The position numbers and the translations under genes are program-made. This document shows, piece after piece, positions 1,997 through 16,658 of a DNA stretch of 64,000 nt. The notes beneath the pieces are model-generated. The model was not told the origin of the DNA and searched no databases. It saw only the letters and a program-made list of their open reading frames with translations. Source of the stretch: Woeseiaceae bacterium (GTDB lineage Bacteria > Pseudomonadota > Gammaproteobacteria > Steroidobacterales > Woeseiaceae); contig JAJFKT010000035.1 in NCBI GenBank assembly GCA_021773075.1, forward strand, positions 124,001-188,000, read 5' to 3'. Position 1 is the first letter of the stretch; every line of letters starts with the position of its first letter.

Positions 1997-2899
1997 CTAT
2001 CCGTGTTCAATCCGGTCTCTCGCATAAAGAATTGCTCCCTCGAGCGGGGTGTGCAAAGCAGGGGACAACAATTCTCTTACATCGGTCGCCAGCCACGGTT
2101 CGATCGTGGCACTCAGGCCGCCGACAAAAGACAGTCGTACCGGGCTGAGTCTGCTGATTACCCGCGCCATCGCCGAAATGTGATCTGCATTATCAACGAC
2201 TATGGCACGCGCAACCTCATCGTTGTTCGCGACGGCAGTGAATACAAGAGGCGCAAGCTGTCCGAACTCGTAGGGTTGGGCATTCGCAAGCCTCTCAACG
2301 ATGCCAATACCTGTCTCCTGATAAAACAAACTGATGCTGTCTTCTAGAAGCGTTGGCGGGCCAAGGCTGTCGTGTGCGAGGAGAGCCGCGCGCAGCGCAC
2401 AAAGTCCGATCCAGGCTGAGCCACCCTTGTCACCGAACGGAAAACCGAAGCCGCCGTGAACGCGGTTTCGCCCACTGATACTGGAATATCCACTGCATCC
2501 GGTGCCAGATATGATCACCGCGCCGTCAGCAGAGCCATGAGATCCATAACACGCGATCTGCATGTCGGTTGTCAGATGAAGAGAATGGTAGGGGTGACGC
2601 CAATTTCTTATCGCCTCATAGGCAGCTGGAACATTGACCCCTGCGAGACCGATTCCGACAACGGTTCTCTGCATGTCACTATCGCTGAGGCCGGCCTCGC
2701 CAAATGCAATCTTGCTTGCTTCGGCTATCGATCGAAATGAGCGCGCGGGATCGCGCAAAGGATTGGCAGGTCCGGCCTTGCCGCGACCCAGCACCCGGTT
2801 GTCCGAGGAAACCAGCAGTGCGCGGCAAGTGGTGCCGCCACCATCGATACCAAGCAAGTATCGCTCGCTGGCGTTCGTGCTATGCGCATTGGCTCCCAA
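1997..2899 (-). CDS. N-acetylglucosamine kinase-like protein (BadF/BadG/BcrA/BcrD ATPase family)
   Basis: A 300-residue ASKHA-fold sugar kinase. Near the N-terminus it has the phosphate-binding motif LLGIDGGGTTCRALLV, then GIGLAGVN, ISGTGCSGY and GFPFGDKGGSAWIG, matching eukaryotic-type GlcNAc kinases of the BadF/BadG family. The predicted job is phosphorylation of imported GlcNAc at O6. The open frame extends to an ATG at 2989, but that would lie upstream of a TATAAT promoter element (2942-2947) and the operator (2925-2936). I therefore choose the TTG at 2899, which has GGAG seven bases upstream and leaves about 16 residues before the motif. It is the first gene of a two-gene unit with the SSS symporter. 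No nagA, and no intact deaminase gene, is visible in the window. Confidence 0.85.
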   Translation of the reverse strand: MGANAHSTNASERYLLGIDGGGTTCRALLVSSDNRVLGRGKAGPANPLRDPARSFRSIAEASKIAFGEAGLSDSDMQRTVVGIGLAGVNVPAAYEAIRNWRHPYHSLHLTTDMQIACYGSHGSADGAVIISGTGCSGYSSISGRNRVHGGFGFPFGDKGGSAWIGLCALRAALLAHDSLGPPTLLEDSISLFYQETGIGIVERLANAQPYEFGQLAPLVFTAVANNDEVARAIVVDNADHISAMARVISRLSPVRLSFVGGLSATIEPWLATDVRELLSPALHTPLEGAILYARDRIEHG

Positions 2900-2924
2900 G
2901 AAACAGCTCCAAAGATATAAGTTT

Positions 2925-2936
2925 GACAACGTTGTC
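2925..2936. promoter_or_regulatory. Palindromic operator O1 (GACAACGTTGTC) over the kinase start site
   Basis: A perfect 12-bp palindrome with a central CG, typical of LacI-family operators and like NagR-type sites described for GlcNAc regulons. It overlaps the predicted transcription start of the leftward kinase-symporter unit (about ten bases after the TATAAT at 2947-2942). Two more copies lie at 3066 and 3101. No LacI-family gene is in the window, so the cognate repressor must be elsewhere. Confidence 0.75.
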
Positions 2937-2941
2937 GTGAC

Positions 2942-2968
2942 ATTATAGCAGCGCGAGCGGTTTGTAAA
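2942..2968 (-). promoter_or_regulatory. Promoter for the kinase-symporter unit
   Basis: On the minus strand, TTTACA (2968-2963) and a perfect TATAAT (2947-2942) are separated by 15 bp. The expected start near 2935 falls inside operator O1, giving a leader of about 36 nt before the TTG start with its GGAG site. The short spacer suggests a promoter of moderate strength, but the arrangement with the operator is convincing. Confidence 0.55.
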
Positions 2969-3063
2969 GTTTCGGCTAGAGTACCGCAAACACTATATAT
3001 ATCGCTAAAATGAAGCCCTCGCTTGCTGAACTCGCAGTTCATGCCGCGTATTCGAATAAAGTC

Positions 3064-3092
3064 TTTACAACGTTGTCATAAACGACTAGTAT
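3064..3092 (+). promoter_or_regulatory. Promoter for the TBDR operon
   Basis: TTTACA (3064-3069) and TAGTAT (3087-3092) are separated by exactly 17 bp on the plus strand. Operator O2 overlaps the -35 element and operator O3 lies just after the predicted start (about 3099). This gives a classic repressible double-operator layout and an untranslated leader of about 80 nt before the TBDR. Confidence 0.55.
3066..3077. promoter_or_regulatory. Palindromic operator O2 (TACAACGTTGTC)
   Basis: Eleven of twelve bases match the O1/O3 palindrome, and the ACAACGTTGT core is perfect. It overlaps the -35 hexamer of the TBDR promoter and lies 35 bp upstream of O3, counted start to start. Repression here would block RNA polymerase binding. 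Confidence 0.7.
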
Positions 3093-3100
3093 CAGCAAAA

Positions 3101-3112
3101 GACAACGTTGTC
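3101..3112. promoter_or_regulatory. Palindromic operator O3 (GACAACGTTGTC)
   Basis: Identical to O1 and placed just downstream of the predicted TBDR transcription start. Together O1, O2 and O3 tie the leftward kinase/symporter genes and the rightward TBDR operon into one regulon. Confidence 0.75.
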
Positions 3113-3180
3113 GTTATCTTGTTCGTTGCCAGTGGTTGGTAGCGAGTCGTCGATAGACAGATTTCCGGGGGGAAATTGAA

Positions 3181-6087
3181 ATGCACTTTAAGAACAAATC
3201 CGCGAAAAAGTCATTGCGAACCACACCAGCTAATCGCTGCACACCCGAAGGAATATTGGCGCAGGCCAAGATGATGCCACTGGCGTTAGCCGTATCCAGC
3301 ATTTGTGCAGGCGGTGCGTACGGCCAGGATTCCGATGCGCGGCGACTTGACGAGATTATCGTCACGGCCCAAAAGCGGGAAGAGAACGTCCAGGATATCC
3401 CGATTACAATCAATCACGTCACCGGCGATATGATGCGTGACCAAGCCATTGAAACGCTGAAAGACGTTAAGCAGCTCATTCCCGGAATCACGATTCGGGA
3501 AAATAATGATCCAAGAAACATTGGCCTGTTTATTCGCGGTATCGGCTCCTTGCAGGCGTTCATCGGCGTGGAACCCGACGCTGCGGTAATCGTGGACGGC
3601 GAAGTTCTCGCCAGAAACTCATCGCTCTTCGGCGACGTTTCCGACATCGAAGGTGTTTCCGTTCTCAAAGGACCGCAGGGAACGCTATTCGGTAAAAACA
3701 CCGTTGCCGGCGCAATGGTCGTGACGACACGACGTCCGTCGCTGGAAGGCAATAGTGGCAATCTTCGGTTCAGCGTCGCAGAGAGTGGCGAAGAGGGCCT
3801 CGGCGAGTATCACCTGGCCGGTACCTACAATTGGGCGACCAGCGACAAATCTGCGCTTCGGTTCAATTTCTTTACGACGGAAAACGATGGTTGGGTCGAG
3901 AACGTTTTGGACGGACCCAATGGTGGTGAATCCGACGCGAGCGGTGCGAGAATTCAATTCCTGCATGAACTCAGTGATCGAACTACGATGATATTCCGCG
4001 CTGAAGCGTCTGAACGAAATCTCGGGCCCGGCACAAGAGTTTTCCTGCAGCGCGACGACTGGACGATTGGCACCAACTTCGGGCAAATCCCGCAATCAGT
4101 TGTTGACGGGCTGGGTCTCACAGGGTCAGCGCTGGATAACTTATTGATAACTAACCTACATGAAATATCACAGACGCCCGCAGGGCCGGAAAATGACAAG
4201 ACTTCAGCATTAAACAATCGTGACTATGGCTTCATCGATTCATCCGCGGCTTCATTCGAACTGAACCACGAATTCGACACAGGCCACGAGCTGACATTTA
4301 CATCGCACTACCGCAACAGTGACCTTGAAACCAATGATTCGATTCTTTCAACAGGCGTCGATGTATTTCCATTGGCATTCTCCGGTCCAGTTAAGAGTGA
4401 CACCTTTCAGAACGAAATTCGCATTGCATCGCCACTGGGAGACAAGGTTGACTATGTTGCGGGCGCTTTCTTGTTGCACTCAAAAGTGACGCGTGATCAA
4501 CGGGTGTTGGCGTGCCAGGATCCAGGTCTTGAGAACAGCACCGTAGACGCTAACTTCGAAGTCACAAGTTGTGGTGGCGAACCCTTCGGCTTCGATCCGG
4601 TAACCAATACGATGACCGGATTTACCGGCGTAAGCGACCTGATATTCAACCGGGAACTCAAGAATAATGACCTTGTAACAACAAATACGGCGCTATTCGG
4701 TCAACTGAATTTTCACTTCAACGACCAATGGACGGCAACTGTCGGAGGACGATTGCTGTACGAGCATCAGGATTTCAGCCTGGATGTGCGCGACGATGGC
4801 GCGCCAAATGTCGACGTCCGACCGACGCTCATCTGGATTCTCGATGAAAACGGCCAGCGCATCAATTTCCCCGGCGTCGGCCGTTTCAACGTCCCCAACC
4901 CGTTGTTAGGAACAGTAACCGACAACCCGGCGACCGATCTTGATGCTAGAGATCCAAGCAATCAATTCACGACGGCGTCCGCCGACAGTCGCGATACCGC
5001 CTTTATCTACAAAGCGGCGCTGCAGTTCTCGCCGATGGACGACATCATGCTGTATACGAGCTACAGCACAGGGTACAAGGGGGTCGGTTGGTTCACAGAC
5101 AGTGATGTGAGACAAGCCGACCTGGATAATAACTATCCGATTCCGCCCGAAGAGTCGACCAATTTTGAGGTGGGAATCCGCTCGGAGTGGTTCGATGGCG
5201 ACCTGCGCGTGAACCTCACCTACTTCGACGCGGATTTCGAGCACTACCAGGAGCGACTGAACAACCTCGACTTTGATCTCTTCCCCATCGTCAACGGCGG
5301 CCTGAAGAATATTCTCAATGATCCGAATGCCAGTGGCCAGCCGATACGAAAGTTCGACATCATTGATGCAGGCACACTCGAATCGACAGGATTCGACGCC
5401 GAGGTCATCTGGAGCGCAACAGATTGGTTAACCCTGGGTGCTGCATGGAATCACGTCACAGCAGAATTTGCCGAAACTGACGTACTGATCACCTGTAACG
5501 CCGCCCAAGCGAACGCCGGCGTTCCCGTCGCGACTTGTACTGCCCCGATCAATTACGGCGAGTTTTTCGACTACTCATTCGGCCGCTTCGGCCAGTTCTT
5601 TGAATTGGACGGCGCACAGCTCGCAAACGCCCCCGAAGATACTGTTACCGCCGATCTCCGCGTCGATTTTCCACTGGGCAACTGGAATAGCTATGTACGC
5701 TGGAACTACCGATACCAGACCGAAGAATTTACCAATCACGGCGGTACAGCGAACAATGACGCCGGGTCAACGGTTCCCCAGTTCGGGATTCACAACCTGT
5801 TTGTCGGTACCTCGTCCGGAGACGGAAAATACAAATTCACGCTCTTCGTAAAGAATCTGTTCGACAAAAAATACTATGCGCGCAAAACAACATTTGGCGA
5901 CGGATTAGCAGAGCGTGCAGTAGGCGCCTACCCGGTTGCGGTGCCCGAGCTTATTGGAGTCGCACAAGCGTACCCGACCTACGGCGCAGTACCGGATGGA
6001 CGGTTCTTCAGACAGCGTGCAGAGCACGGCCAGGTGCCGAGGGACTTCAACCGTTATGTTGGTGCATCATTCGAAATGCGCTTCTAG
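3181..6087 (+). CDS. TonB-dependent outer-membrane receptor (GlcNAc/chitin-locus type)
   Basis: A 968-residue outer-membrane receptor for TonB-powered uptake. It has an extended signal peptide ending near GGAYGQ, a TonB-box-like segment (DEIIVTAQKRE), a plug domain with VSVLKGPQGTLFGKNTVAGA, a long beta-barrel region, and a C-terminal aromatic residue in the last strand (ASFEMRF). The ATG at 3181 has a G-rich ribosome-binding site eight bases upstream. It is the first gene after the double operator and is divergent from the GlcNAc kinase. A perfect 12-bp hairpin follows the stop. The substrate is probably a chito-oligosaccharide or other GlcNAc-containing glycan, because a GH20 enzyme is encoded downstream. 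The substrate is inferred; the receptor family is certain. Confidence 0.93.
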   Translation: MHFKNKSAKKSLRTTPANRCTPEGILAQAKMMPLALAVSSICAGGAYGQDSDARRLDEIIVTAQKREENVQDIPITINHVTGDMMRDQAIETLKDVKQLIPGITIRENNDPRNIGLFIRGIGSLQAFIGVEPDAAVIVDGEVLARNSSLFGDVSDIEGVSVLKGPQGTLFGKNTVAGAMVVTTRRPSLEGNSGNLRFSVAESGEEGLGEYHLAGTYNWATSDKSALRFNFFTTENDGWVENVLDGPNGGESDASGARIQFLHELSDRTTMIFRAEASERNLGPGTRVFLQRDDWTIGTNFGQIPQSVVDGLGLTGSALDNLLITNLHEISQTPAGPENDKTSALNNRDYGFIDSSAASFELNHEFDTGHELTFTSHYRNSDLETNDSILSTGVDVFPLAFSGPVKSDTFQNEIRIASPLGDKVDYVAGAFLLHSKVTRDQRVLACQDPGLENSTVDANFEVTSCGGEPFGFDPVTNTMTGFTGVSDLIFNRELKNNDLVTTNTALFGQLNFHFNDQWTATVGGRLLYEHQDFSLDVRDDGAPNVDVRPTLIWILDENGQRINFPGVGRFNVPNPLLGTVTDNPATDLDARDPSNQFTTASADSRDTAFIYKAALQFSPMDDIMLYTSYSTGYKGVGWFTDSDVRQADLDNNYPIPPEESTNFEVGIRSEWFDGDLRVNLTYFDADFEHYQERLNNLDFDLFPIVNGGLKNILNDPNASGQPIRKFDIIDAGTLESTGFDAEVIWSATDWLTLGAAWNHVTAEFAETDVLITCNAAQANAGVPVATCTAPINYGEFFDYSFGRFGQFFELDGAQLANAPEDTVTADLRVDFPLGNWNSYVRWNYRYQTEEFTNHGGTANNDAGSTVPQFGIHNLFVGTSSGDGKYKFTLFVKNLFDKKYYARKTTFGDGLAERAVGAYPVAVPELIGVAQAYPTYGAVPDGRFFRQRAEHGQVPRDFNRYVGASFEMRF

Positions 6088-6098
6088 CTTTGCAACGT

Positions 6099-6130
6099 GG
6101 CAGTTCCCGCCGTAGCATGCGGGAACTGCC
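6099..6130 (+). terminator. Hairpin after the TBDR gene (attenuating terminator)
   Basis: A perfect 12-bp inverted repeat (GGCAGTTCCCGC / GCGGGAACTGCC) with an 8-base loop begins 11 bp after the TBDR stop. Only a weak T-rich stretch follows, and the next gene starts about 10 bp later. It probably stabilises the TBDR message or reduces read-through into the modification genes. Confidence 0.6.
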
Positions 6131-6139
6131 TATTTGAAT

Positions 6140-7825
6140 ATGACAACGGTCAATCACGAAATTATGACCGAGCCGACACGTCCACCGCTCAGCGACGCCA
6201 GAGCGCACCGCCTATTACGGCGCGCCAAATCGGCGAGCACCACAGATCCCTTTTTGGCGCTCGACAATATTCACAAAATACTCGATGGCGGTTCGGCGTC
6301 AGCTGACGTGTTGCAATTGCAGGCCACTGTCTTACTGCAACTTGGTTGCGGTACGAATGCGGCGCGGGCGGCGGAGGCCGCACTGGATGCAGGTGGAGAT
6401 CGGAGGGCGATTCTCTTATTGCTGCTGACATGCTACCTGACCGCCTACCACCGCAAACCGGCCGCACGACTGATTCCGCGAATTCTGGAGATGGAGCCAC
6501 TCCCGGCGGATGCGAAGTCGGATGTTGCGCACGCGGCGCAGGAGATACATAAGTATGACCTCGCGGAAAGGCTGTACCGGGAATTGTTGGAAGATGACCC
6601 AGCAAACGCCAAGTTACTCGTGAATCTTGGCTATGCGATGCAAAAACAAGGCCGCATGCAGGAGGCGAGTGAAAATTACCGAAAGGCCATAGACTGTAAC
6701 CCCGGGTCCGCGAATGCGTACAAGCTGCTGTCCTCCGTCCGCAAACAAAGTGCGGAAACAAACCACCTCGTAATTATCCAAAACGCCATGCCTCTATTCG
6801 AGGAGGATTCAGACGAATACGTCACGGCGAAGTATGCGTTGGGCAAGACCTGTGAGGACCTGGGTGACTATCAAAGCGCCTACGAGCACTTCGCAGATGG
6901 TGCGACCGCAATGCGGCCGATGTCGCCGTACACCACAGAGTCAAGTCAACACGCGTTCAAATTAACCCGAAAATATTTCGAACACTCCCGGCGCGCGCTG
7001 ACAAGAACTGCAGATGCTGATAGCGGTACGGAATCGGCGCCTCTGTTTATCCTAGGCATGCCACGCACGGGATCAACGTTGGTAGACCGAATTCTCTCGA
7101 GTCACTCGGAAGTGGTTTCGATGGGCGAGCTAGGCTGCTTCAAGGAGTCAATGAAGGTCTTGACGGGGTTTGGTGGTGGAAGTGGTTTTCATGAGCACTT
7201 CTATCAACAGCCTGAACGCGACATTGATCTGACTCGTTTAGGCGAGCTGTATGTTAGTGCCGCCTGTCCGGATGATCGTTCTGGGCGATATTTCATAGAC
7301 AAGTACCCGATGAATTTTCTGGATCTCGGCCTAATTGCGGAAGCACTGCCAAATGCATTGTTTGTGCACTCACTTCGCGATCCAATGGACACTTGTTTTT
7401 CAAATTTCAAACAGTTGTTTACCCTGGGTTTTTATCATTACTCTTACTCAATGAAGGAGTGCGCCGAGTACTATCTCCTTTATCGGGAGCTGATGCGCTT
7501 CTGGCAACAGAGGTATCCAGATCGAATTATCAATGTGAACTATGAAGATATGGTCAGTGATACTGAGGTGCAGGTTCGACGATTGCTGGCGTTTCTGAAG
7601 CTGGATTGGCAGGAGCAGTGCCTTGAATTCCACAAGAATCGGGGACCCGTCGATACGGCCAGCCTGAGTCAGGTGCGGCAGCCGATCTATCGATCGGCTG
7701 TTAAGCACTGGACGCACTATCGTCCGTATTTGCAGGACGCTATCGATGTATTTCAACGTGCCGGCATCGACGTCGATGCGCAACAGGAAAACGCTCACGA
7801 GACAGCGGCGGGTGTCAACGCATGA
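6140..7825 (+). CDS. TPR-domain sulfotransferase family protein
   Basis: A 561-residue protein in two parts. Residues about 1-290 are helical tetratricopeptide-like repeats, for example AKLLVNLGYAMQKQGRMQEA. From about residue 303 there is a sulfotransferase domain with the PAPS 5'-phosphate loop FILGMPRTGSTLVDRILSSH, then an LFVHSLRDPMDTCFSNF segment like the 3'-phosphate-binding motif. Family members transfer sulfate from PAPS; the closest architecture is that of protein or tyrosine sulfotransferase-like enzymes. I use the ATG at 6140. A TTG at 6134 and an ATG at 6164 are possible and none has a strong ribosome-binding site. The stop overlaps the next start as ATGA, indicating translational coupling. 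The target is unknown; proteins of the same operon are candidates. Confidence 0.85.
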   Translation: MTTVNHEIMTEPTRPPLSDARAHRLLRRAKSASTTDPFLALDNIHKILDGGSASADVLQLQATVLLQLGCGTNAARAAEAALDAGGDRRAILLLLLTCYLTAYHRKPAARLIPRILEMEPLPADAKSDVAHAAQEIHKYDLAERLYRELLEDDPANAKLLVNLGYAMQKQGRMQEASENYRKAIDCNPGSANAYKLLSSVRKQSAETNHLVIIQNAMPLFEEDSDEYVTAKYALGKTCEDLGDYQSAYEHFADGATAMRPMSPYTTESSQHAFKLTRKYFEHSRRALTRTADADSGTESAPLFILGMPRTGSTLVDRILSSHSEVVSMGELGCFKESMKVLTGFGGGSGFHEHFYQQPERDIDLTRLGELYVSAACPDDRSGRYFIDKYPMNFLDLGLIAEALPNALFVHSLRDPMDTCFSNFKQLFTLGFYHYSYSMKECAEYYLLYRELMRFWQQRYPDRIINVNYEDMVSDTEVQVRRLLAFLKLDWQEQCLEFHKNRGPVDTASLSQVRQPIYRSAVKHWTHYRPYLQDAIDVFQRAGIDVDAQQENAHETAAGVNA

Positions 7826-8430
7826 ATTTTCAGGGGGATGCAATTCTTCATGGAGAGTTCGATATTGCGGATATCGTCAATTGGGTCGCAGGTCTCCCGG
7901 AGCAAATATGGGACGAGGACACGAGTCGACAAGAGATATTTGAGGCGCATACAGATACACAGACCGTGAAACTGTTGTTTGATCCAGACTATCGTCACAT
8001 AAACCCTACTTCACATCCTTTGTTACAGGAATGCTCTGCGCTGATCGAACCTTTGCAGGAGCATATTCTGGCAACGTATTCGAAAAGCCTGCGACAGAAA
8101 AAGACGATTAGAAAAAACGGCCCAGGCTACTTCATACGTATCGTTCTCACACGTCTGGCGGCAAATAGCGCGATTACGCCCCACGTAGATGATGGTGACT
8201 CGCTAAAGCGCTGTCATCGCATTCACGTCCCGATAGTTAGCAATGACAGGTGTTTCTTCCTCGTTGGCGAATCGAAGATTCAAATGCAGAGCGGTGAAAT
8301 GTGGGAGATCAATAACCGACTCACACATGCTGTTGAAAATGGCGGTAATCAATCAAGAGTTCACCTGATCATGGACTTCGTACAACCCGGTGAAGTGGTC
8401 CACGACCACGACGGACCCCTCATTGCATAG
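7822..8430 (+). CDS. Aspartyl/asparaginyl beta-hydroxylase-like 2OG-Fe(II) oxygenase
   Basis: A 202-residue protein with the AspH-type double-stranded beta-helix core. ITPHVDDGDSLKRCHRIHVPI carries the first metal-binding histidine and the conserved H..H segment. ITNRLTHA-like NRLTHAVENGG carries the second histidine, and SRVHLIMDF carries the arginine that would bind 2-oxoglutarate. There is no signal peptide, so it acts in the cytoplasm, before export of any envelope substrate. The start overlaps the sulfotransferase stop by four bases (ATGA). The predicted reaction is hydroxylation of Asp/Asn or a related side chain using 2-oxoglutarate and oxygen. The substrate is unknown, and free amino acids or peptides cannot be excluded. 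Confidence 0.8.
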   Translation: MNFQGDAILHGEFDIADIVNWVAGLPEQIWDEDTSRQEIFEAHTDTQTVKLLFDPDYRHINPTSHPLLQECSALIEPLQEHILATYSKSLRQKKTIRKNGPGYFIRIVLTRLAANSAITPHVDDGDSLKRCHRIHVPIVSNDRCFFLVGESKIQMQSGEMWEINNRLTHAVENGGNQSRVHLIMDFVQPGEVVHDHDGPLIA

Positions 8431-8442
8431 GATCGAAAACTG

Positions 8443-8895
8443 ATGACGGAAAACGCAAGTGCCGCTGAACAAATATTCATGACGAAACGGATTTTCGTCA
8501 AGGACTTTTCTTTCGAGGCGCCCGGTGGTGTCGACACGTTTACCCACCCATGGGACCCCGAAGTCACCGTCGACGTTGACGTCGCGAAGGAGGCGCTGGG
8601 CGAAGACCATTACGAAGTCGTTCTAACTCTGACGATCACGACGGCAAACGCCGGTGCTACGGCATTTATGATCGAGGTATTTCAAGGCGGTATTTTTCAA
8701 TGTCGCGGCTTCGCCGAAGATGAGCTGCATCGTGTGTTACACGCCGTGTGCCCGAATTTGCTGTTCCCGTATGCGGCAGAGGCCGTCGACGGCATGACGT
8801 TGAAGGGCAGCTTTCCGGCGCTGACTCTGCAGCCGATCAATTTTGATGCGCTGTACCAACAAAACATGCGCAACGACTCGGAGCGCAGCGATTAA
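8443..8895 (+). CDS. SecB-family export chaperone (operon-borne paralogue)
   Basis: A 150-residue protein that aligns by eye along nearly the whole length of SecB. It shows RIFVKDFSFEAPGG, then HPWDPEVTVDVDV, YEVVLTLTITT, FQGGIFQCRGF, VCPNLLFPYAAEAV and LQPINFDALYQQ, all hallmark SecB blocks. SecB keeps precursors unfolded in the cytoplasm and hands them to SecA. Housekeeping secB normally sits near grxC/gpsA or similar genes, not in a TBDR operon, so this is likely a second copy serving local clients. The ATG at 8443 lies 12 bp after the hydroxylase stop with AGGA upstream. The 3' end overlaps the next gene by about 50 bp. Confidence 0.88.
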   Translation: MTENASAAEQIFMTKRIFVKDFSFEAPGGVDTFTHPWDPEVTVDVDVAKEALGEDHYEVVLTLTITTANAGATAFMIEVFQGGIFQCRGFAEDELHRVLHAVCPNLLFPYAAEAVDGMTLKGSFPALTLQPINFDALYQQNMRNDSERSD

Positions 8896-9844
8896 CCTGC
8901 GTCTGCGAAAACGAATTCGGAAACTGACGTCTCAGGCCTCGCCCGAGGACGTTGCTGCCTGCTTCAATAACGCAGTCTTCATCGTGTCGGCACCCCGTGC
9001 CGGCAGTACTCTGCTGTTCAGTCTGTTGTCGCAGAGTCCCGAAATTTGGACCATCGGCGGCGAAAGCCATGGCATCTACGCGCAATTTCCACAATTGGCC
9101 GCGGAAGATAAAGAATTTTCATCGGGTCGACTATTCGATTCGCACGCCGACACAAAGACGCGCGAACATTTCCTGCGTTTCTACCTGGCGTTGGTCAAGA
9201 AGAATAATGGAGAGACATTGATAGACGATATGCCGCATTCACTGCGGCAGAGAGTCGTGTTCCTTGAAAAAACGCCGCGCAACTCACTGAATATCGATTT
9301 TCTACGGGCCGTTTTTCCGTCGGCACGATTTATCTACCTGCACCGCGATCCGCGTGAAAACATCAGCAGTATCATCGAGGGATGGCGGCTCGGTGCGAAG
9401 TCGGGCGAGTTTGTCACGTTTCGAAAACTGCCGGACTGGCCATTGGGGTATTGGTGTTTTCTGTTACCTCCCGGATGGCACGGCATGAGCGGCCGACCGA
9501 TATCAGATATCGCCGCGTTTCAATGGCAAGCCTGCAACGAGATTATTCTGCAGGACTTGTCCAATTTGCCAGCGGATCACTGGACCAGCGTTTCCTATTC
9601 CGATCTCGTCAGCCAGCCCGCCGATGAGCTTTTGAGATTGTGCGAATTTTGCGGCGCTGAAGGTGGGGGCTATCTAAGTTCGAGATCGACCGGCAATCTG
9701 CCGCTGTCGGCATCAACTATCACGCCACCAAGAAAAGACAAGTGGAAGCGTCACGAGACAGAAATTCAAGCAGTGATGCCGGGTTTGAAGCAAACGATGA
9801 AGCTAATCGACGAGGCACACAAGCAGAAGGGAGCGGGTTTATGA
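8846..9844 (+). CDS. Sulfotransferase family protein
   Basis: A 332-residue single-domain sulfotransferase. The PAPS loop is FIVSAPRAGSTLLFSLLSQS (about residues 46-65). It is followed by VFLEKTPRNSLNIDFLRAVF and then FIYLHRDPRENISSIIEGW, the 3'-phosphate-binding motif. It lacks the TPR half found in the first sulfotransferase of this unit. The start is uncertain: an ATG at 8846 and a TTG at 8843 both overlap the secB end by about 50 bp, and no clear ribosome-binding site is seen, so translational coupling is likely. The stop overlaps the GH20 lipoprotein start as ATGA. It could sulfate a protein or a glycan; the sequence does not say which. Confidence 0.83.
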   Translation: MRCTNKTCATTRSAAINLRLRKRIRKLTSQASPEDVAACFNNAVFIVSAPRAGSTLLFSLLSQSPEIWTIGGESHGIYAQFPQLAAEDKEFSSGRLFDSHADTKTREHFLRFYLALVKKNNGETLIDDMPHSLRQRVVFLEKTPRNSLNIDFLRAVFPSARFIYLHRDPRENISSIIEGWRLGAKSGEFVTFRKLPDWPLGYWCFLLPPGWHGMSGRPISDIAAFQWQACNEIILQDLSNLPADHWTSVSYSDLVSQPADELLRLCEFCGAEGGGYLSSRSTGNLPLSASTITPPRKDKWKRHETEIQAVMPGLKQTMKLIDEAHKQKGAGL

Positions 9845-12477
9845 ATCGATGTCATTGGTCTTTGGTATCGCGGCCCGTCGCAGCGTTGGCGCTATTGTGG
9901 TTGATGGCTTTCCTGACTGGATGTGAGTCGCGACAAGATTCCAGACTGAATGAGGCCAGTTCAGATCAAGATCAACTGAATGCTTTTGCCGAGTCATTGC
10001 AAGTCACTTACACCGTCGTCAATAATCTCGAAAAAGGACCCTGCGGCTCCGCTGGTCGATGCTTTTCGGTTCGCATAGTTCTCAGCACGACAAAGAGTGT
10101 ATCGGCCGATGATTGGCAACTCTATTTCAGTCAGCTGTTTCCGTTACACCAGGTGATAAGCGATGAATTTTCGGTGGAGACAATCAACGGTGATTTGAAT
10201 CGGATCGTGCCCAATGAAAACTATCGTGGATTCATACCGGGCGAGCCAAAAGAAATTACGCTGTATTTGGCTGGTACGCACGGAAATGAGTACGAGGCCA
10301 TGCCAAACTACTACGTCGTTCGTGATAGCTTGCAGCCACGACTCGTTCTGAGCACGGTGCCGACAACCGACCCGGAGACAGGGCTCGAGGTGTTGCCACA
10401 TCTGTCCTCGTTCACCGATCCGGATCGCCAATTCCGTATCACTGATACTGAGAAAATCGAGTGGGCAACTGCCGAAATACTGTACCAACGAAACCTCGAC
10501 ACAGTGCATACGCCGCAAGCTACATTCGGTGCAGTTATTCCTCAGCCGTTAAAGACCGAGATTGATCCGGCAAAGCGCGAGCTCGACCTTACACATGGAA
10601 TCTCGCTTGAGCTTGATGGACTCGAACGTGAAACATTGGCCGCAGCACTTGGACGATTGGCGTCCTTGGGATTTCCCGAGCGTGAGGATGGCGTGTCCGT
10701 ATCCATATCTCTCAGGGAAGTGACCAAAGACCTGGCCGATGCCGAATCCTACGTACTGCTGATTGCTGAACGCGGTGTCACCGTCGATGCGGCCGACGAG
10801 GCAGGCGCCTTCTACGCGTTGCAGTCACTCGCTGCACTGGCGCACCTAGACGATACGAAGGTTCCGTTCATAAAGATAGTGGATAGCCCACGATATGCGT
10901 TTCGAGGATTGCACGTCGATGTCGCGCGAAACTTTCATTCGAAGGAACTCATTCTCCGAATCATCGAGCAGATGTCAGCCTACAAGCTCAACAAGCTGCA
11001 CTTTCATCTTGGCGATGACGAAGGCTGGCGAATGGAGATTCCCGGGCTGCCAGAGTTGACAGACATTGGTAGCAAGCGCTGTCACGACCCATCTGAATCC
11101 AGTTGCGTATTACCGCAATTGGGATCAGGACCCTTTGGCGATACCGAAGTGGATGGCTATTACTCCTTGGCTGATTATCGAGAAATCCTTGCCGCAGCGA
11201 ATGCCCACCACGTCCAGGTTATTCCGTCGTTCGATATGCCCGGACATTCGAGGGCGGCGGTCAAATCGATGGAGGCTCGTTTCCGGACATACGAAGCTAA
11301 TGGAGATGCAACCGAGGCGAGACGATATCTGCTGAGCGACCTCGAAGACGCCAGCGAGTACAGCAGCATTCAAAACTACACTGATAATACGATAAACGTT
11401 TGTCTTGAATCGAGTTACGTCTTTGTGGAGAAGGTCATTTCCGAACTGCAGAAGGTCCACGAAGAAGCCGATCATCCACTGACGAAATACCACATAGGGG
11501 CTGATGAAACAGCCGGCGCCTGGAAGGACTCGCCGGCCTGCGAACAATTTCTCGTTGAAAACGCAGAGCGGGTGAGCAGCACCAGCAAACTTGGCGCATA
11601 CTTTATTGAAAGAGTCGCCGAAATGTTGGCTGACAAAGGCATCAATCCAGCCGGTTGGGGTGACGGAATGGGACATACAGAGGTCTCAAACATGCCAGCG
11701 GTCGTGCAGTCCAACGCCTGGGGACGCCTCATCGATCCGGCACACGTAGCCGCGCACCGGCAAGCCAACAACGGATGGGACGTCGTGGTGTCGACCCCGG
11801 ATGCTACCTACTTCGATTTTCCTTATGAGGCCGATCCGAAAGAACGCGGTTACTACTGGGCGTCGCGGCAAACGAACTCACGCAAGGTGTTCGAATTCAT
11901 GCCTGACAATCTGCCGGCGCACGCGGAATTCTGGACCGATTCGGAGGGGCTCGATTTTGCACTACATGATCGGGAACCACTGCTAGCGGGTCGACGATTT
12001 GCTGGCGTGCAGGGCCATCTATGGTCGGAGACGATGCGATCGGATCAACAAGTTGAATACATGTTATTTCCCCGACTTCTGGCGCTGGCAGAGCGTGCGT
12101 GGCATCGCGCGTCGTGGGAGGTTCCCTATGATCGGAGTGGTGCAAGCTACAGTAAGGCGAGCGGACACTTCAGCGCAGATCAACGCGATGACAGAGATCG
12201 TGAGTGGAATCAATTCGCAAACGTTGTCGCCGGAAAGGAACTCGCGAAGCTTGACCTGGCCGATATTTTTTATCGCATTCCCACCGTCGGCGCGCAGCGC
12301 ATTGATGGGGTGCTTTTTTGTAATTTGATATTTCCAAACCTTCAGATTGAGTACCAGCTTGATGGGGGCAATTGGCAGATCTACGATGGCGCCGTCGATG
12401 TTGGGAGTAGGTCAGTTCAGGTGCGTGCGATCTCAGCCGACGGAACTCGCCGGGGCCGCAGTCTGACGGTGCAATAG
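9841..12477 (+). CDS. GH20 beta-N-acetylhexosaminidase (chitobiase-like lipoprotein)
   Basis: An 878-residue lipoprotein. A signal peptide ends at the lipobox LTGC (Cys28). An N-terminal chitobiase-type carbohydrate-binding/Ig-like region follows, then a GH20 helper domain, then the catalytic TIM barrel from about residue 350. The barrel has KLHFHLGDDEGWRMEIPGLP and the catalytic dyad in YHIGADETAG (Asp555-Glu556), which supports substrate-assisted hydrolysis. A small C-terminal domain closes the protein. It releases GlcNAc from chitobiose or other beta-GlcNAc glycans in the periplasm or at the outer membrane. I place the start at the ATG at 9841, which overlaps the sulfotransferase stop (ATGA) and puts the signal peptide at the N-terminus. 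Its product would feed the GlcNAc kinase encoded divergently. Confidence 0.92.
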   Translation: MNRCHWSLVSRPVAALALLWLMAFLTGCESRQDSRLNEASSDQDQLNAFAESLQVTYTVVNNLEKGPCGSAGRCFSVRIVLSTTKSVSADDWQLYFSQLFPLHQVISDEFSVETINGDLNRIVPNENYRGFIPGEPKEITLYLAGTHGNEYEAMPNYYVVRDSLQPRLVLSTVPTTDPETGLEVLPHLSSFTDPDRQFRITDTEKIEWATAEILYQRNLDTVHTPQATFGAVIPQPLKTEIDPAKRELDLTHGISLELDGLERETLAAALGRLASLGFPEREDGVSVSISLREVTKDLADAESYVLLIAERGVTVDAADEAGAFYALQSLAALAHLDDTKVPFIKIVDSPRYAFRGLHVDVARNFHSKELILRIIEQMSAYKLNKLHFHLGDDEGWRMEIPGLPELTDIGSKRCHDPSESSCVLPQLGSGPFGDTEVDGYYSLADYREILAAANAHHVQVIPSFDMPGHSRAAVKSMEARFRTYEANGDATEARRYLLSDLEDASEYSSIQNYTDNTINVCLESSYVFVEKVISELQKVHEEADHPLTKYHIGADETAGAWKDSPACEQFLVENAERVSSTSKLGAYFIERVAEMLADKGINPAGWGDGMGHTEVSNMPAVVQSNAWGRLIDPAHVAAHRQANNGWDVVVSTPDATYFDFPYEADPKERGYYWASRQTNSRKVFEFMPDNLPAHAEFWTDSEGLDFALHDREPLLAGRRFAGVQGHLWSETMRSDQQVEYMLFPRLLALAERAWHRASWEVPYDRSGASYSKASGHFSADQRDDRDREWNQFANVVAGKELAKLDLADIFYRIPTVGAQRIDGVLFCNLIFPNLQIEYQLDGGNWQIYDGAVDVGSRSVQVRAISADGTRRGRSLTVQ

Positions 12478-12479
12478 TC

Positions 12480-14369
12480 ATGTACTGCCGCGGTCTTGGG
12501 GGCATGGGTCTGACTGCATTGGTCAGTTGCCTTCTTGTTGCCTGCGGTGGCGGAGGTGACGGCGTCGGCGCGTCAAACCCCGTAATGAACGGCGCACCGA
12601 TTGCCAACGCAGGTGTCGGTGGCAATTTTCTTGCAGGCGAATCGGTAGCACTTGATTGCAGTGCCAGTAGCGACCCGCAGGGAGACATGTTGAGTTATGA
12701 CTGGTTTCAGTTGGACGGACCGACTGTTCAGTTGAGCGACAACAATTCGTGCAATCCTGTTTTCACTGCACCGGATGCAACAACAACGATCGCATTTCGT
12801 CTCACAGTCAGTGACACGCTCAATGTGAGCACCGATAGCGTGTCGTTCTCAATTGCTGGCACTATTCCGATTCCAGACCTTGGGTTTACCGAAGCCGGTG
12901 CCGCCGCAGGCCTGTTGCCGTACTCAATGGCGATTGGGCCTCATGCCGGCGTAGCCGTTGTTGACTTTAACTCGGACGGTTTAATCGACATCTTCGCTCC
13001 GAACGGTGAGGGTGTCGCTGACCAGTTGTACGCTAACCAGGGCGATGGCAGCTTTATAGAGCTTGCCGCGAGCCTGGGTCTGGCGTCGCTTCAGAATCAC
13101 CGCAGTTCTCTGTGGGTGGACTACGATGGTGATCACGATTTGGATCTTGTTATCGGCGGAGATTGCCGAGATGACCCTGTTTCACTTGAGGAATGCAGTG
13201 ATCCAGAAAACCTCTGGCTTTATCGACAGGGAGCGACGGGTGAATTTGAAAATGTCTCCGAGTTGGCCGGACTGCATGTCGCGTGGGGTGGCATAGCGAA
13301 TTGGCATCGCGGCGGATTATCTGCCGGAGATATCAACAACGATGGCTATCTTGAATTATTGGTCATCGGCTGGCACGACCGTGCTTACCTTTTTCTCAAT
13401 AATGGAGACGGAACGTTCACCGACATCGCCGTGCCTTCAGGCGTGACAGATGACATCTACGCCTACCAACAAGCGGTGTTTCATGACTTTGACCGCGACG
13501 GCTGGATCGATATGTATTTTGCTGTTGATGGTCAGGTTGCAAATCGACTCTACATAAATCAAAGGGATAATACTTTCGTCGATGCCGCTAGCATGGCCGG
13601 GGTTGATTATGCATCAACCGACATGGGCATCGCCCTTGGAGATGTAAATAATGACGGTCGCGTCGATATGTACGTTACAGAGATTACTCAGTTCGTCGAC
13701 GGCGAGTATCGCCATAATCAACTCTATGTGAGGGACGCGTCGCTGGCGGACCCGTCCTTCACGGAAATTTCGGAGTCCGTTGGTGTACAAAACGGCTATT
13801 GGGGGTGGGGTGCAACGTTTATCGATTACGATAACGACGGTTGGCAAGATCTCGCGACGACGAACGGAAAGAACCTGCCCGGCTGGACCAACGATCACTC
13901 GAAACTTTGGAGAAATACAGGAATTAGCAATCGCGCATTTGACGACGTGTCAGTCGCAGCAGGATTCGATGATGATTACATTGCCGCAGGATTGATCGCA
14001 GCTGACCTCGATCGGGACGGTGATCTGGATTTATTGCAAACGACCAGCGAGGGAGGTCCATTACGTCTACTGCGCAATAACGCAGATAGCGGTGCGCCCT
14101 CGAACAACCACGTGTCGATAAAACCGAGAATGTCGGGCCGCAACCACTGGGCGATCGGAGCCCGGATAACGGTGGAAGTCGGTTCGAGCCGAATGGTGCG
14201 AGTCATAACAGCAGGAACCAGCACCGATTCACAGGAACCCGCGGAGGCACATTTCGGTCTTGGGCAGGCAACCTCTGTGGATCGCGTGATCATCGACTGG
14301 CCTGGCGGTCAGCAATCAATTTACAGCGGACTGGAAGTGAATCGGCAGCACATGATTTTGCTCGAATAA
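12480..14369 (+). CDS. FG-GAP/VCBS repeat lipoprotein with ASPIC/UnbV C-terminus (CRTAC1-like)
   Basis: A 629-residue exported lipoprotein (lipobox LVAC, Cys22). A PKD/Ig-like domain spans about residues 35-130 (ANAGVGG, then LDCSASSDPQGDMLSYDW). A seven-bladed-propeller type region follows with repeated calcium-binding loops such as DFNSDGLIDIF, DYDGDHDLDLV, DINNDGYLELL, DFDRDGWIDMY, DVNNDGRVDMY and DLDRDGDLDLL. The C-terminal ASPIC/UnbV motif is near AHFGLGQATSVDRVIIDWPGG. It starts two bases after the GH20 stop, so it is the last gene of the operon. Such proteins are surface or periplasmic scaffolds or binding proteins; no enzymatic activity can be assigned. It could hold glycan near the GH20 enzyme or the TBDR. 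Confidence 0.85.
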   Translation: MYCRGLGGMGLTALVSCLLVACGGGGDGVGASNPVMNGAPIANAGVGGNFLAGESVALDCSASSDPQGDMLSYDWFQLDGPTVQLSDNNSCNPVFTAPDATTTIAFRLTVSDTLNVSTDSVSFSIAGTIPIPDLGFTEAGAAAGLLPYSMAIGPHAGVAVVDFNSDGLIDIFAPNGEGVADQLYANQGDGSFIELAASLGLASLQNHRSSLWVDYDGDHDLDLVIGGDCRDDPVSLEECSDPENLWLYRQGATGEFENVSELAGLHVAWGGIANWHRGGLSAGDINNDGYLELLVIGWHDRAYLFLNNGDGTFTDIAVPSGVTDDIYAYQQAVFHDFDRDGWIDMYFAVDGQVANRLYINQRDNTFVDAASMAGVDYASTDMGIALGDVNNDGRVDMYVTEITQFVDGEYRHNQLYVRDASLADPSFTEISESVGVQNGYWGWGATFIDYDNDGWQDLATTNGKNLPGWTNDHSKLWRNTGISNRAFDDVSVAAGFDDDYIAAGLIAADLDRDGDLDLLQTTSEGGPLRLLRNNADSGAPSNNHVSIKPRMSGRNHWAIGARITVEVGSSRMVRVITAGTSTDSQEPAEAHFGLGQATSVDRVIIDWPGGQQSIYSGLEVNRQHMILLE

Positions 14370-14391: not shown

Positions 14392-15180
14392 TCAAGACCG
14401 CCGGGCAGTGGCAATAAGATAGCCAGCACCGCCGCTCGCAATGAATTGTTCAAGATCTGCGAGCACTGCAGCAGGGTCACCAAAGTCGACACTCAGGCCC
14501 GTGTTTGCTGCCACATTCGCGGTTGCCAACAGTGTGAGTCGATGACGGATGCGCTGAATCATGTCGGCCAGTGTCCAGTTTACCTTCCGAATTCGAATGT
14601 ATTCAAAACCCGTCCGGGATAACACGTCGCGATAGCCGTCGACTGAGCGTGCGGCGGCAACACAAAGAACTCTACCTAGCAATCCGTCAAGACTATCTGG
14701 GACGGGTGCATTCAGGAAAAAATCGGAAATGCCAATTCGGCCGCCCGGTTTCAAGACAGCGTGGATTCCTTGAAGTGATGTATCCATATCCTCGAAGAGG
14801 CACAAGCTGCACTCGCATAAAGCGACATCGAAAGATTCTGCTGCGAACGGTAGCTGCTCGGCGTCAGCTCTTAGGAATTGCGTTTTATGGTTGAGGCCAG
14901 CAGTGTGAGACGCCTGTCTCGCACGCTCGATATTGACGCTTGAATAGTCGCAGCCGGTAACCGTTGCACCAAAATTCGCTGCAAGCAGGCGCGCCGTACT
15001 ACCGCTGCCGCAGGCTACGTCAAGCACTCGCGAGTTTGGCGAGACAAGGCTTGCTGTTGCCAGCTGCCGCGTCAATTTCGTGCCACCCGGATGAAAACTC
15101 TGGCCCAGGAGATATTCAACGATCGGTAATTCATAGAGCTCGGCACAACAGCTTGCTAGTGATTGATTCGCTGGGTTCAC
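14392..15180 (-). CDS. Class I SAM-dependent methyltransferase
   Basis: A 262-residue cytoplasmic enzyme with a Rossmann-fold methyltransferase core. Motif I is RVLDVACGSGSTARLLAANFG, then GCDYSSVNIERAR (acidic loop after beta-2) and SFDVALCECSLCLFEDM (motif IV/V). It is of the UbiE/arsenite-methyltransferase-like type, but no arsenic-binding cysteine set is evident to me. The GTG start overlaps the radical SAM gene stop (GTGA), so the two are translated as a pair. It ends convergently 22 bp from the FG-GAP gene. The substrate is likely to be shared with or produced by the radical SAM partner, which is inference. Confidence 0.8.
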   Translation of the reverse strand: MNPANQSLASCCAELYELPIVEYLLGQSFHPGGTKLTRQLATASLVSPNSRVLDVACGSGSTARLLAANFGATVTGCDYSSVNIERARQASHTAGLNHKTQFLRADAEQLPFAAESFDVALCECSLCLFEDMDTSLQGIHAVLKPGGRIGISDFFLNAPVPDSLDGLLGRVLCVAAARSVDGYRDVLSRTGFEYIRIRKVNWTLADMIQRIRHRLTLLATANVAANTGLSVDFGDPAAVLADLEQFIASGGAGYLIATARRS

Positions 15181-16658
15181 GAAGACTGGCTCTCAGAATC
15201 CCGGTAGCGGGCAAGTGATATGGGTCCGGTCAGCGGCACGAATTCTCGCTTGCGTATTGGTTCGAGAACATTCTTTTCCAATCCATCACGGTACAACAGG
15301 TTATAGGTATCAAACGGGATGACCCTCTTGCCGTCGGGATGAACAATGTGCACGCAGGTCTTGCGTATTGAACGAAGGTCAAATCCCTGCGCGTCGATAA
15401 ATTCGACAATCAGTATGCGAAATATATTTGAATAACCCAGTTGCTCCGGGGGAGAGCGGCCGAGCGTGTCGAGAAAATCACTCATCGCATCCTTCTGCGA
15501 CGTGACCGAGTGATGGGTTGAGAACAGATTAAGGAAGTGCTCACGGATGGCGGGTTCCGCTTCGTAGGTAATAGTCGCCCCGCCGGCCTCTATAAGAAAT
15601 TCCGGATCAACGAGGCCGGTGAGTGGTACCAGGCCCGAATCGAGTTTGAGCGCATAAGCCATTGCGAGATGATCCGGGTGGCACGGAACCGGGATGAGAT
15701 CTTCAGGTGCAAACACCGGACACTGCTCGAGGATCTTGCGGCGAATTTCGGTCAGGGTTAATCGGTCCCGTTCATTGTTGTAACCCGACTCATACTCTTC
15801 GAGACGGCCGGCTGCCTGCACCGGTTGGAAGGTAACGCCACGAACACAAGGTTGTTGGGTCGCGTAGTCGATTATTTCGCCCATTTCGTCGTCGTTAAGT
15901 CCGCGCCGAATTGTCGCGACAAGATTGGTGTGAATGCCGGTTTCGTTAAGGCGATTAATGGCACGGGTATGGGTGCTGCTGAGATCTGTACCCCTTAGCG
16001 TCTTCAATACGTCGCGGCGAAAGGAATCGAATTGTAAATATATTTCGAGGCCAGGAGTGAATTCGGCGAGGCGTTCGGCGAATCCCGGTTCATTTGCGAT
16101 GCGTATCCCGTTTGTGTTCACCATGAGATGTCCGATGGGCCGCTGCCGGGCCAGTTCGAGAATCTCAAAAAACTGCGGGTGTACGGTCGGCTCGCCGCCG
16201 GAGATCTGGATAATGGACGGCTCGCCTTCGTTGGCAACCGCCCGATCCAGCATGCGTTCAATCTGTTCCAGACTTCGGTGTATCTGTCGCTCTGGCCCGC
16301 TACTCGCGTAGCAGGTGGGGCAGCGCAAATTACAATTATCGGTAACTTCGATTAAAAGCGTACAGCCATGTTGTTCATGGTCCGGACAAATTCCACAGTC
16401 ATACGGGCACCCATATCGAACTGGCGTATTCGGAGCGATGACTTGCTCAGGGGTTTTGATGAAGGTTTCTCTGGCCAGCTTGTAGTAGGCAATATCGTCC
16501 GCCATTAGCACTCGTTCAGCACCGTGCTCGGGACATCGCTTCAACATCCATACACAGCCATCCTGAAATACGATTTTCGCGTCAACGCGTGTCAGGCATG
16601 TACTGCAAATCGAGATCGTGGAATCGTAATATTGGTACGGTCGCTGCTTCGCTTTCAC
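15177..16658 (-). CDS. Radical SAM protein resembling the tetraether lipid synthase (Tes/MJ0619) family
   Basis: A 493-residue protein. The N-terminal zinc-finger-like part has CSTCLTRVDAKIV and then KRCPEHG. A cysteine-rich link, GCPYDCGICPDHEQHGC, follows, and the radical SAM CX3CX2C motif is in TDNCNLRCPTCYASSG. Next come ISGGEPTVHP and a (beta/alpha) barrel, and the C-terminal part is long. This order (finger, CPYDCG.CP.H, CN.RCP.C) is that of Tes/MJ0619-like enzymes, which join or modify lipid chains in archaea and have bacterial homologues of uncertain role. The frame extends to 16748, but I choose the GTG at 16658, which has GGAG eight bases upstream. It is coupled to the methyltransferase. 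Function beyond radical chemistry is unproven. Confidence 0.8.
   Translation of the reverse strand: MKAKQRPYQYYDSTISICSTCLTRVDAKIVFQDGCVWMLKRCPEHGAERVLMADDIAYYKLARETFIKTPEQVIAPNTPVRYGCPYDCGICPDHEQHGCTLLIEVTDNCNLRCPTCYASSGPERQIHRSLEQIERMLDRAVANEGEPSIIQISGGEPTVHPQFFEILELARQRPIGHLMVNTNGIRIANEPGFAERLAEFTPGLEIYLQFDSFRRDVLKTLRGTDLSSTHTRAINRLNETGIHTNLVATIRRGLNDDEMGEIIDYATQQPCVRGVTFQPVQAAGRLEEYESGYNNERDRLTLTEIRRKILEQCPVFAPEDLIPVPCHPDHLAMAYALKLDSGLVPLTGLVDPEFLIEAGGATITYEAEPAIREHFLNLFSTHHSVTSQKDAMSDFLDTLGRSPPEQLGYSNIFRILIVEFIDAQGFDLRSIRKTCVHIVHPDGKRVIPFDTYNLLYRDGLEKNVLEPIRKREFVPLTGPISLARYRDSESQSS

Follow-up and report, generated by a model that had tools for sequence, protein, structure and literature searches.

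A cassette of seven genes occupies positions 3181-14369 of a 64,000-nucleotide stretch of a Woeseiaceae genome (contig JAJFKT010000035.1, positions 124,001 to 188,000; this whole stretch is called the window, and its own coordinates are used here). The cassette encodes a TonB-dependent receptor (TBDR), two sulfotransferases, a PF05118 hydroxylase resembling AspH (hereafter AspH), a SecB paralogue and two putative lipoproteins. SecB is a cytoplasmic chaperone that keeps proteins destined for export from folding and delivers them to SecA. Our analysis indicates that the AspH and SecB genes form a fixed pair that recurs in two proteobacterial classes, and that this SecB belongs to a clade of its own. 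The evidence on the function of the cassette is entirely genomic, and on balance it leans slightly towards an amino-sugar-inducible TBDR operon equipped with a modification module, whose enzymes would act in the cytoplasm, before export, on an envelope precursor held by SecB, most likely the TBDR.

The products were assigned to families by Pfam and NCBIfam scans of the translations. The first gene of the cassette, which lies on the forward strand, encodes the TBDR (3181-6087; 968 amino acids (aa) with a long signal peptide; PF07715, E 3.8e-15; PF00593, E 4.9e-29). It is followed on the same strand by a sulfotransferase carrying tetratricopeptide repeats (TPR-ST; 6134-7825, with ATG 6140 as the likely start; PF13469, E 1.4e-45, plus TPRs), AspH (7822-8430; 202 aa; PF05118, E 7.8e-15), the SecB paralogue (8443-8895; 150 aa; PF02556, E 2.4e-46; TIGR00809, 139.9 bits for a cut-off of 102.8) and a second sulfotransferase (ST2; 8846-9844; PF13469, E 2.3e-28). 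The last two genes encode a GH20 beta-N-acetylhexosaminidase (9841-12477; E 2.5e-89) and an FG-GAP/UnbV_ASPIC protein (12480-14369; FG-GAP_3, E 3.2e-40; UnbV_ASPIC, E 3.8e-16). Both are likely lipoproteins with lipobox-like starts; for GH20, the start at ATG 9841 places the lipobox (LTGC) correctly. The TPR-ST and AspH genes share 4 bases (7822-7825), SecB and ST2 overlap by about 50 bases (ST2 ATG at 8846) and ST2 and GH20 by 4 bases if ATG 9841 is used (103 bases for the longest open reading frame), whereas the GH20 and FG-GAP genes are separated by 2 bases. The seven genes, their coordinates and families, and overlaps of at least four bases at three junctions had all been given in the initial annotation, and all hold.

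This gene order is not due to chance since it is found again in other genomes. Scanning genome contigs with four AspH sequences yielded 19 loci, nine of which are 52-77% identical: three from Woeseiaceae metagenome-assembled genomes (MAGs; L033-L035) and six (L073-L078) from Robiginitomaculum, Emcibacter and Henriciella MAGs, from Asticcacaulis AC460 and AC466 and from one Asticcacaulis MAG, that is, from genera that we take to be Alphaproteobacteria. In all ten cassette loci, the window included, SecB lies directly 3' of AspH (the nine gaps measured span 11-72 bases). The TPR-ST precedes this pair in nine loci, and a TBDR adjoins the TPR-ST in eight (the contig of L073 ends first). A GH20 match is present in the retrieved stretch of nine loci; in the two Asticcacaulis strains AC460 and AC466, it lies 6-8 kb away on the other strand and is 29-31% identical. 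The four Woeseiaceae versions (window's own genome, G081, G028 and G014) share the order symporter, NagK, TBDR, TPR-ST, AspH, SecB, ST2, GH20 and FG-GAP, with ST2 missing from G081. The smallest locus, L078, consists of a sulfotransferase-like gene, AspH and SecB, with a NagK-like gene downstream and flhB about 2 kb upstream; neither a TBDR nor a TPR-ST was found on its 9-kb contig. In the Asticcacaulis loci, the adjacency of AspH and SecB is kept though the TBDR has no match to that of the window and the second sulfotransferase is unrelated.

Hence, the recurrence beside TBDRs in related genomes, which the initial annotation had proposed as a check, is found, and across two proteobacterial classes. 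It concerns the core rather than the full set that had been put forward: ST2 (P0005 type) is present in six of the ten loci, an unrelated 230-aa sulfotransferase-like gene takes its place in three and one locus has neither, and the FG-GAP lipoprotein was seen solely in the four Woeseiaceae versions. Mis-binned contigs were rejected as the sole cause of the spread across classes because Asticcacaulis AC460 and AC466, which are not labelled as MAGs, carry the module; the Robiginitomaculum, Emcibacter and Henriciella loci come from MAGs and are still subject to this doubt. A search of 72,556 plasmid records with the window AspH (P0003) gave one match, in Asticcacaulis, which to judge by its 27.5% identity is not the cassette.

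The SecB of the cassette is clearly recognisable (E 6.7e-38 with SecB of E. coli) and is one of two SecB genes of the window's genome, the other being on contig 27. A SecB match exists in 134 of 149 genomes, the window's own included. A copy at least 67% identical to that of the window exists in only four of them (own, G081, G028 and G014), always within the cassette. Each of the ten cassette genomes has exactly two SecB matches. In a tree of 47 rows, the cassette SecBs form one clade against the 37 others (branch support 100/99), and the other SecB of six cassette hosts falls in a separate, well-supported group; with long branches and a midpoint root, the point of attachment of the cassette clade is uncertain. 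The cassette SecB does not group with the SecB of its host lineage and is not the housekeeping orthologue. The earlier description of an operon with its own SecB is thereby firmly supported, as a dedicated clade within a set that recurs in both classes. Four residues (E. coli numbering) that we take to be SecA contacts are D20, E24, L75 and E77, three of which (D20, E24 and E77) are kept in the window copy. Over the ten cassette SecBs, D20, E77 and Q80 are kept in all and E24 in seven (Q in Asticcacaulis), and L75 is replaced by M in nine, window copy included.

Such a paralogue could be a dosage or specificity back-up chaperone for the envelope proteins of the operon and be functionally unconnected with the enzymes. 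SecB typically serves outer-membrane proteins, and three other genomes among the 149 (G002, G013 and G087) also have two SecB matches, at lower identity. Furthermore, a second SecB is not new by itself since more than one solitary SecB is counted in 26 of 1631 genomes in the consulted part of PMC4257090. However, this explanation appears improbable given the restriction of the paralogue to four of 149 genomes and to the cassette, the AspH neighbour in ten of ten loci, the lack of any SecB profile match in 12 TPR-ST/TBDR neighbourhoods without AspH, and the fusion proteins described below. The fixed AspH-SecB neighbourhood could also mean that SecB is the chaperone of one of the enzymes and not of an exported protein, as the SecBs of toxin-antitoxin-chaperone (TAC) systems are for antitoxins, according to the parts consulted of PMC6377645 and PMC4257090. 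This is very improbable: D20, E24 and E77 are kept in the window SecB, the cassette AspHs have no visible C-terminal extension, and the SecA-like tail of the fusions would lack a role. No toxin-antitoxin genes were recognised among the cassette genes by Pfam, further neighbours not having been scanned against a toxin library.

Fusion proteins tie the enzymes to the SecB/SecA step independently of the cassette. More distant AspH homologues (L080-L088, 34-38% identity; titled Gammaproteobacteria, with one Halieaceae and one Proteobacteria) are fusions of about 490 aa encoded in gammaproteobacterial MAGs. The eight complete ones (L080 and L082-L088) all combine the AspH domain with a C-terminal SEC-C domain (PF02810, E 1e-4 to 2e-10); in the ninth (L081), which is cut by a contig end, the SEC-C tail was recognised by pattern. 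Their N-terminus is homologous to the free 230-aa gene of Asticcacaulis (blastp down to 2e-55; hhalign 7e-49), and a profile built from both picks up SULT structures across 43 residues (E 8e-5). The tails are identical to the SecA tail of the window's genome at 14-19 of 20 positions (eight tails compared, that of L083 left out), and SecA is the only SEC-C protein matched in this genome. The last 22 residues of SecA are given as its main SecB-binding site in the part of PMC4257090 consulted; SecA-like tails also occur on other proteins, one of which is proposed to meet SecB in a preprint that PMC8076867 cites. The three genes of L078 (sulfotransferase-like, AspH and SecB) thus correspond to the three domains of the fusions (sulfotransferase-like, AspH and SecB-binding tail), and no other independent evidence speaks as strongly for the enzymes being functionally linked to SecB. 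With a tail in place of the SecB gene, the fusion could dock on SecB itself.

In 369 genomes of the class, a search with a SEC-C fusion gave matches in three only (the TPR-type fusion of the window's genome, a 245-aa N-terminal half and one gene split by a stop); no intact SEC-C fusion was recognised among these, and such fusions are therefore rare in this sample. Five of the fusion loci (L084-L088) share potassium-channel-like and small endoribonuclease-like neighbours, named by sequence appearance and not scanned. Ribosome binding, too, has been reported for the tail domain of SecA, and the SEC-C tail might recruit ribosomes instead of SecB; modification would then be co-translational and the cassette SecB would act only afterwards. 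Since the cassette codes for SecB and for no ribosome factor, we regard this as distinctly improbable, and it is a variant of modification before export rather than its opposite.

The enzymes themselves are compatible with work in the cytoplasm. Sulfotransferases use 3'-phosphoadenosine 5'-phosphosulfate (PAPS) and PF05118 enzymes use 2-oxoglutarate, and both cosubstrates are cytosolic; an APS kinase for PAPS supply is present in the window's genome. The best PDB match of the sulfotransferase half of the TPR-ST is protein-tyrosine sulfotransferase 1 (TPST1; E 3.7e-8 over 213 residues). A GE pair is invariant in the seven aligned TPR-ST rows, and the glutamate between the PAPS motifs is presumably a functional residue of TPST-type enzymes. 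In AspH, H121xD123...H169 and R179 are identical in 112 of 112 aligned homologues; we take this HxD...H motif plus arginine to be the 2-oxoglutarate/Fe(II) site of PF05118 enzymes.

Both kinds of enzyme belong to a wider set of TBDR loci. Defining the TPR-ST type as PF13469 in open frames of at least 490 aa that match the TPR-ST profile, we found that all 17 such proteins of five genomes chosen for few contigs have a TBDR next to them (four in the window's own, six in G078, five in G081, one each in G117 and G104). The distance is within 300 bases in 14 cases and 927, 1658 and about 4,700 bases in the others. Among six genomes searched together, G134 and G112 have no TPR-ST-type protein. G134, the only genome in which shorter PF13469 proteins were examined (those of G081, G104 and G112 being left out), has three that do not match the TPR-ST profile, two of them with a TBDR elsewhere in the 12.7-kb stretch. 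AspH matches occur in 87 of the 149 genomes, and neighbourhoods were inspected for most matches down to about E 1e-15 plus a few weaker ones. Among 88 short AspH genes, a TBDR lies within 8 kb in 69, a sulfotransferase in 73 and both in 63. After dropping 37 genes with less than 6 kb on one side, these numbers become 48, 47 and 46 of 51; of the remaining five, two lie in TBDR loci with a sulfotransferase-like/AspH/TPR fusion, one has a sulfotransferase without TBDR and two have neither. From the densities in the window's genome, a TBDR would be expected by chance within 8 kb in roughly 20% of cases and a TPR-ST in roughly 2%.

Moreover, a halogenase-family gene lies within 8 kb of 12 of the 88 short AspH genes. 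For instance, a locus of the window's own genome (L089, 8386-19063; C29, 221-232 kb) encodes a TBDR, three Trp-halogenase-family proteins, AspH and a fusion ending in TPRs; in loci of this type, one halogenase gene was scanned and the rest were called by profile. L079, whose AspH is 44% identical to that of the window, is also of the halogenase type. In their N-terminus, the fusions of this subtype share 52-58% identity with the SEC-C fusions (eight best pairs), and the three scanned (L089, L095 and L097) end in TPRs, not in SEC-C. In all, L089, L094-L099, L109-L113, L079 and L123 encode a PF05118 hydroxylase and at least one Trp_halogenase-family protein, sometimes several. Most also have a TBDR, along with a sulfotransferase-like/AspH/TPR fusion or else an ST2-like sulfotransferase, some contigs being too short to tell. 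These loci may represent a second kind of enzyme-linked TBDR locus.

Taken together, these data would fit the following course of events. An amino sugar would release a LacI-type repressor and derepress both divergent arms of the region, as the palindromes, NagK and symporter described below suggest. The TBDR precursor would be made in excess over the enzymes, in a ratio that a hairpin after the TBDR gene may set. In the cytoplasm, the cassette SecB would capture a still unfolded envelope precursor, for which the TBDR is the preferred candidate since no other partner is shared so widely by the sulfotransferases. The PF05118 enzyme would then hydroxylate a side chain of the held precursor and one or both PAPS-dependent sulfotransferases would sulfate it, possibly on the new hydroxyl, with the TPR domain providing peptide recognition. 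That the sulfate goes onto the very group which has just been hydroxylated is an appealing idea since both domains are fused in some proteins. Finally, SecB would hand the modified precursor to SecA and the Sec machinery. Cytoplasmic modification before SecB-assisted export had already been suggested in the initial annotation; it is now better founded through the recurrence, the SecB clade and the SEC-C fusions, while the modification, its substrate and its chemistry are still inferred. A more far-reaching form, which we consider doubtful as a whole, would make SecB a docking platform on which a 2-oxoglutarate hydroxylase and then a capping sulfotransferase produce sulfo-oxy side chains on the held receptor precursor, and would mean that, beyond the window, a large group of TBDRs so far overlooked as a class has dedicated partners among sulfotransferases, hydroxylases and halogenases.

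Several observations weigh against modification of a SecB-held TBDR. Among solved structures, those closest to AspH are proline hydroxylases (best, L-proline cis-4-hydroxylase, E 5e-4), and AspH has a match, far below cut-off, to an NCBIfam model for non-proteinogenic amino acid hydroxylases. The best PDB match of ST2 is the sulfotransferase of the polyketide enzyme CurM (E 1.5e-7), which is also matched by the TPR-ST in the PDB profile comparison (E 3.3e-6). These likenesses leave room for a small-molecule substrate: the enzymes may make or alter a ligand that the TBDR imports or senses, for example an amino acid or a sugar bearing sulfate or hydroxyl, SecB merely helping the export of a large, strongly induced receptor. 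TBDRs do import small ligands, and the sister loci pair them with Trp-halogenase-family genes. Nevertheless, we find this explanation rather unlikely because the AspH-SecB adjacency survives replacement of the TBDR and of the second sulfotransferase, L078 keeps SecB without a TBDR in view, in the fusions the tail by which SecA binds SecB is part of the enzyme, and the TPR domains and the likeness to tyrosine sulfotransferases indicate a polypeptide.

The other adverse points concern the client, the role of SecB and the data. No TBDR profile match was found in the retrieved stretches around the SEC-C fusions, which give no clue to a substrate; with L078, which likewise has no TBDR in view, they imply that the substrate need not be a TBDR. 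No modification site emerged from a comparison of 69 enzyme-linked TBDRs with 20 controls (TBDRs of the window's genome without an adjoining PF13469 gene, their other neighbours being unchecked), and the best columns mostly track the phylogeny of one large cluster (47 of 68 clustered linked TBDRs). SecB occurs in three of the 88 short-AspH loci, namely the three Woeseiaceae cassettes (the window is not counted), and is missing from most TBDR/TPR-ST/AspH loci examined. As it is also missing from the 12 neighbourhoods without AspH mentioned above, enzymes of this class can generally do without it. In addition, the first 240 residues of the fusions score 16-20 bits with Sulfotransfer_1, below the Pfam cut-off of 22, and eight of the ten cassette genomes, perhaps including the window's, are or may be MAGs.

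Upstream of the cassette lie features that its initial annotation did not include, as is the case for the hairpin 3' of the TBDR gene. Two genes on the reverse strand diverge from it: a sodium/solute symporter (265-1971; Pfam and NCBIfam) and an N-acetylglucosamine (GlcNAc) kinase of the NagK type (1997-2989; NF046058, 338.4 bits, below the cut-off of 370). An operator-like palindrome, GACAACGTTGTC, lies upstream of the likely NagK start (site 1, 2925-2936). On the forward strand, a promoter-like TTTACA-17-TAGTAT (3064-3092) is accompanied by palindromes at 3067 (10-mer) and 3101 (12-mer, ending at 3112). The exact 12-mer has two copies in the window (2925 and 3101); the promoter scan is at chance level (8 found, 8.6 expected). 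The layout of three palindromes with fixed spacing is common to the window and L033-L035, four Woeseiaceae genomes in which NagK and the symporter are also kept beside the cassette. A single copy lies upstream of the TBDR in L074, adjoining two LacI-family genes, and none was found in L073 or L075-L078. These palindromes are likely operators of a LacI-family regulator, as predicted from sequence, whose gene is unlocated in the window's genome. In Xanthomonas, the LacI-family regulator NagR is reported to control a GlcNAc kinase and TBDRs (PMC5343134, consulted in part). Given the conserved palindromes, NagK, the symporter and this precedent, the Woeseiaceae operon is most likely induced by an amino sugar, a ligand that we infer from these features.

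The intercistronic hairpin (6099-6130, forward strand) has a 12-bp stem, an 8-base loop and no T-run. L033 has a hairpin of nearly the same sequence at the equivalent position 3' of the TBDR, those of L034 and L035 differ in sequence, and L074 and L075 have one there too. In relatives, its place and stem are retained and the sequence varies. Overall, the region has the features of a GlcNAc/chitin utilisation locus, with a TBDR, a GlcNAc kinase (below model cut-off), a hexosaminidase and predicted LacI-type operators. In the Asticcacaulis strains of L076 and L077, an alpha-L-fucosidase gene (about 2200-4000, reverse strand; PF01120 scanned in L076, 78% identical in L077) adjoins the TBDR and GH20 genes, which suggests that these loci target a fucosylated glycan rather than plain chitin. 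Directly downstream of the window cassette, a pair of methyltransferase-like and radical-SAM-like (CxxxCxxC) genes lies on the reverse strand (14392-16748; labels from sequence appearance, families unscanned); no match to this pair was found in the retrieved stretches of the three syntenic relatives.

We know of no case in which SecB recruits enzymes to the proteins it holds. Should the proposed reading be true, sulfate or hydroxyl groups that have escaped notice would be attached to some outer-membrane receptors before their export, and the SEC-C proteins would gain a rationale. What the numerous TPR-sulfotransferases and small PF05118 enzymes do next to TBDRs could then be tested in named Asticcacaulis strains. 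Among known systems, the accessory Sec pathway of Gram-positive bacteria, in which SecA2, Asp and Gtf proteins serve serine-rich adhesins, works alike, with dedicated export factors and cytosolic modification of a surface protein before translocation. However, the modification is glycosylation, the export paralogue is SecA2 and not SecB, and no gene is known to be shared with the cassette; no SecA2, Asp protein or serine-rich adhesin appeared among the cassette genes in the Pfam scan, no dedicated search having been made.

The RaxX-RaxST system of Xanthomonas also resembles the cassette, since a PAPS-dependent, TPST-related sulfotransferase modifies a protein before secretion and its gene lies beside export genes. 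In the part of PMC6637879 consulted, RaxX was called in 2019 the only documented case of bacterial tyrosine sulfation. Unlike in the cassette, its precursor has 60 residues and uses type I export, and the cluster as described in that part has no AspH, SecB, TPR or TBDR; the cassette genes all belong to families other than those of RaxX/RaxAB in the Pfam scan, no search having been aimed at raxX. The NagR-regulated GlcNAc TBDRs of Xanthomonas, like the window, tie TBDRs and a GlcNAc kinase to LacI-family regulation, but the consulted part of PMC5343134 does not mention a sulfotransferase, AspH or SecB with them. Periplasmic-type sulfotransferases, with a TonB gene near one of them, are also on record (PMC10932419, consulted in part).

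The sulfotransferase/AspH pair itself is already in print: for sphingomonad-type bacteria, the lasso-peptide families in the part consulted of PMC10040529 (Table 2) include an aspartyl beta-hydroxylase along with two sulfotransferases, which stand between the lasso B2 and PqqD/asparagine-synthase families. This common pair hints that it also serves peptides; the table fits a peptide substrate and a possible peptide-tailoring relative. It lists co-occurring protein clusters with gene order unstated, no SecB or TBDR at that place and no function tested. In TAC systems, too, a specialised SecB paralogue is part of a gene set found across taxa (PMC4257090 and PMC6377645, in the parts consulted), whereas in the cassette no toxin or antitoxin was recognised, most presumed SecA contacts are kept and SecB stands beside modifying enzymes. 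YecA, YchJ and other proteins with SecA-like tails have, as the fusions do, a metal-binding tail on a protein other than SecA (PMC8076867, in the part consulted); in the fusions, it sits on a sulfotransferase-like/hydroxylase protein. In agreement with the initial annotation, which knew of no system with this set, neither a TBDR-sulfotransferase-AspH set nor SecB beside such enzymes was found described among the open-access PMC papers listed, as covered by their titles and abstract openings (subscription papers and preprints lie outside). Since no compared system shares its defining features, we rate the combination as new, and its new part appears to be the fixed place of SecB beside modifying enzymes.

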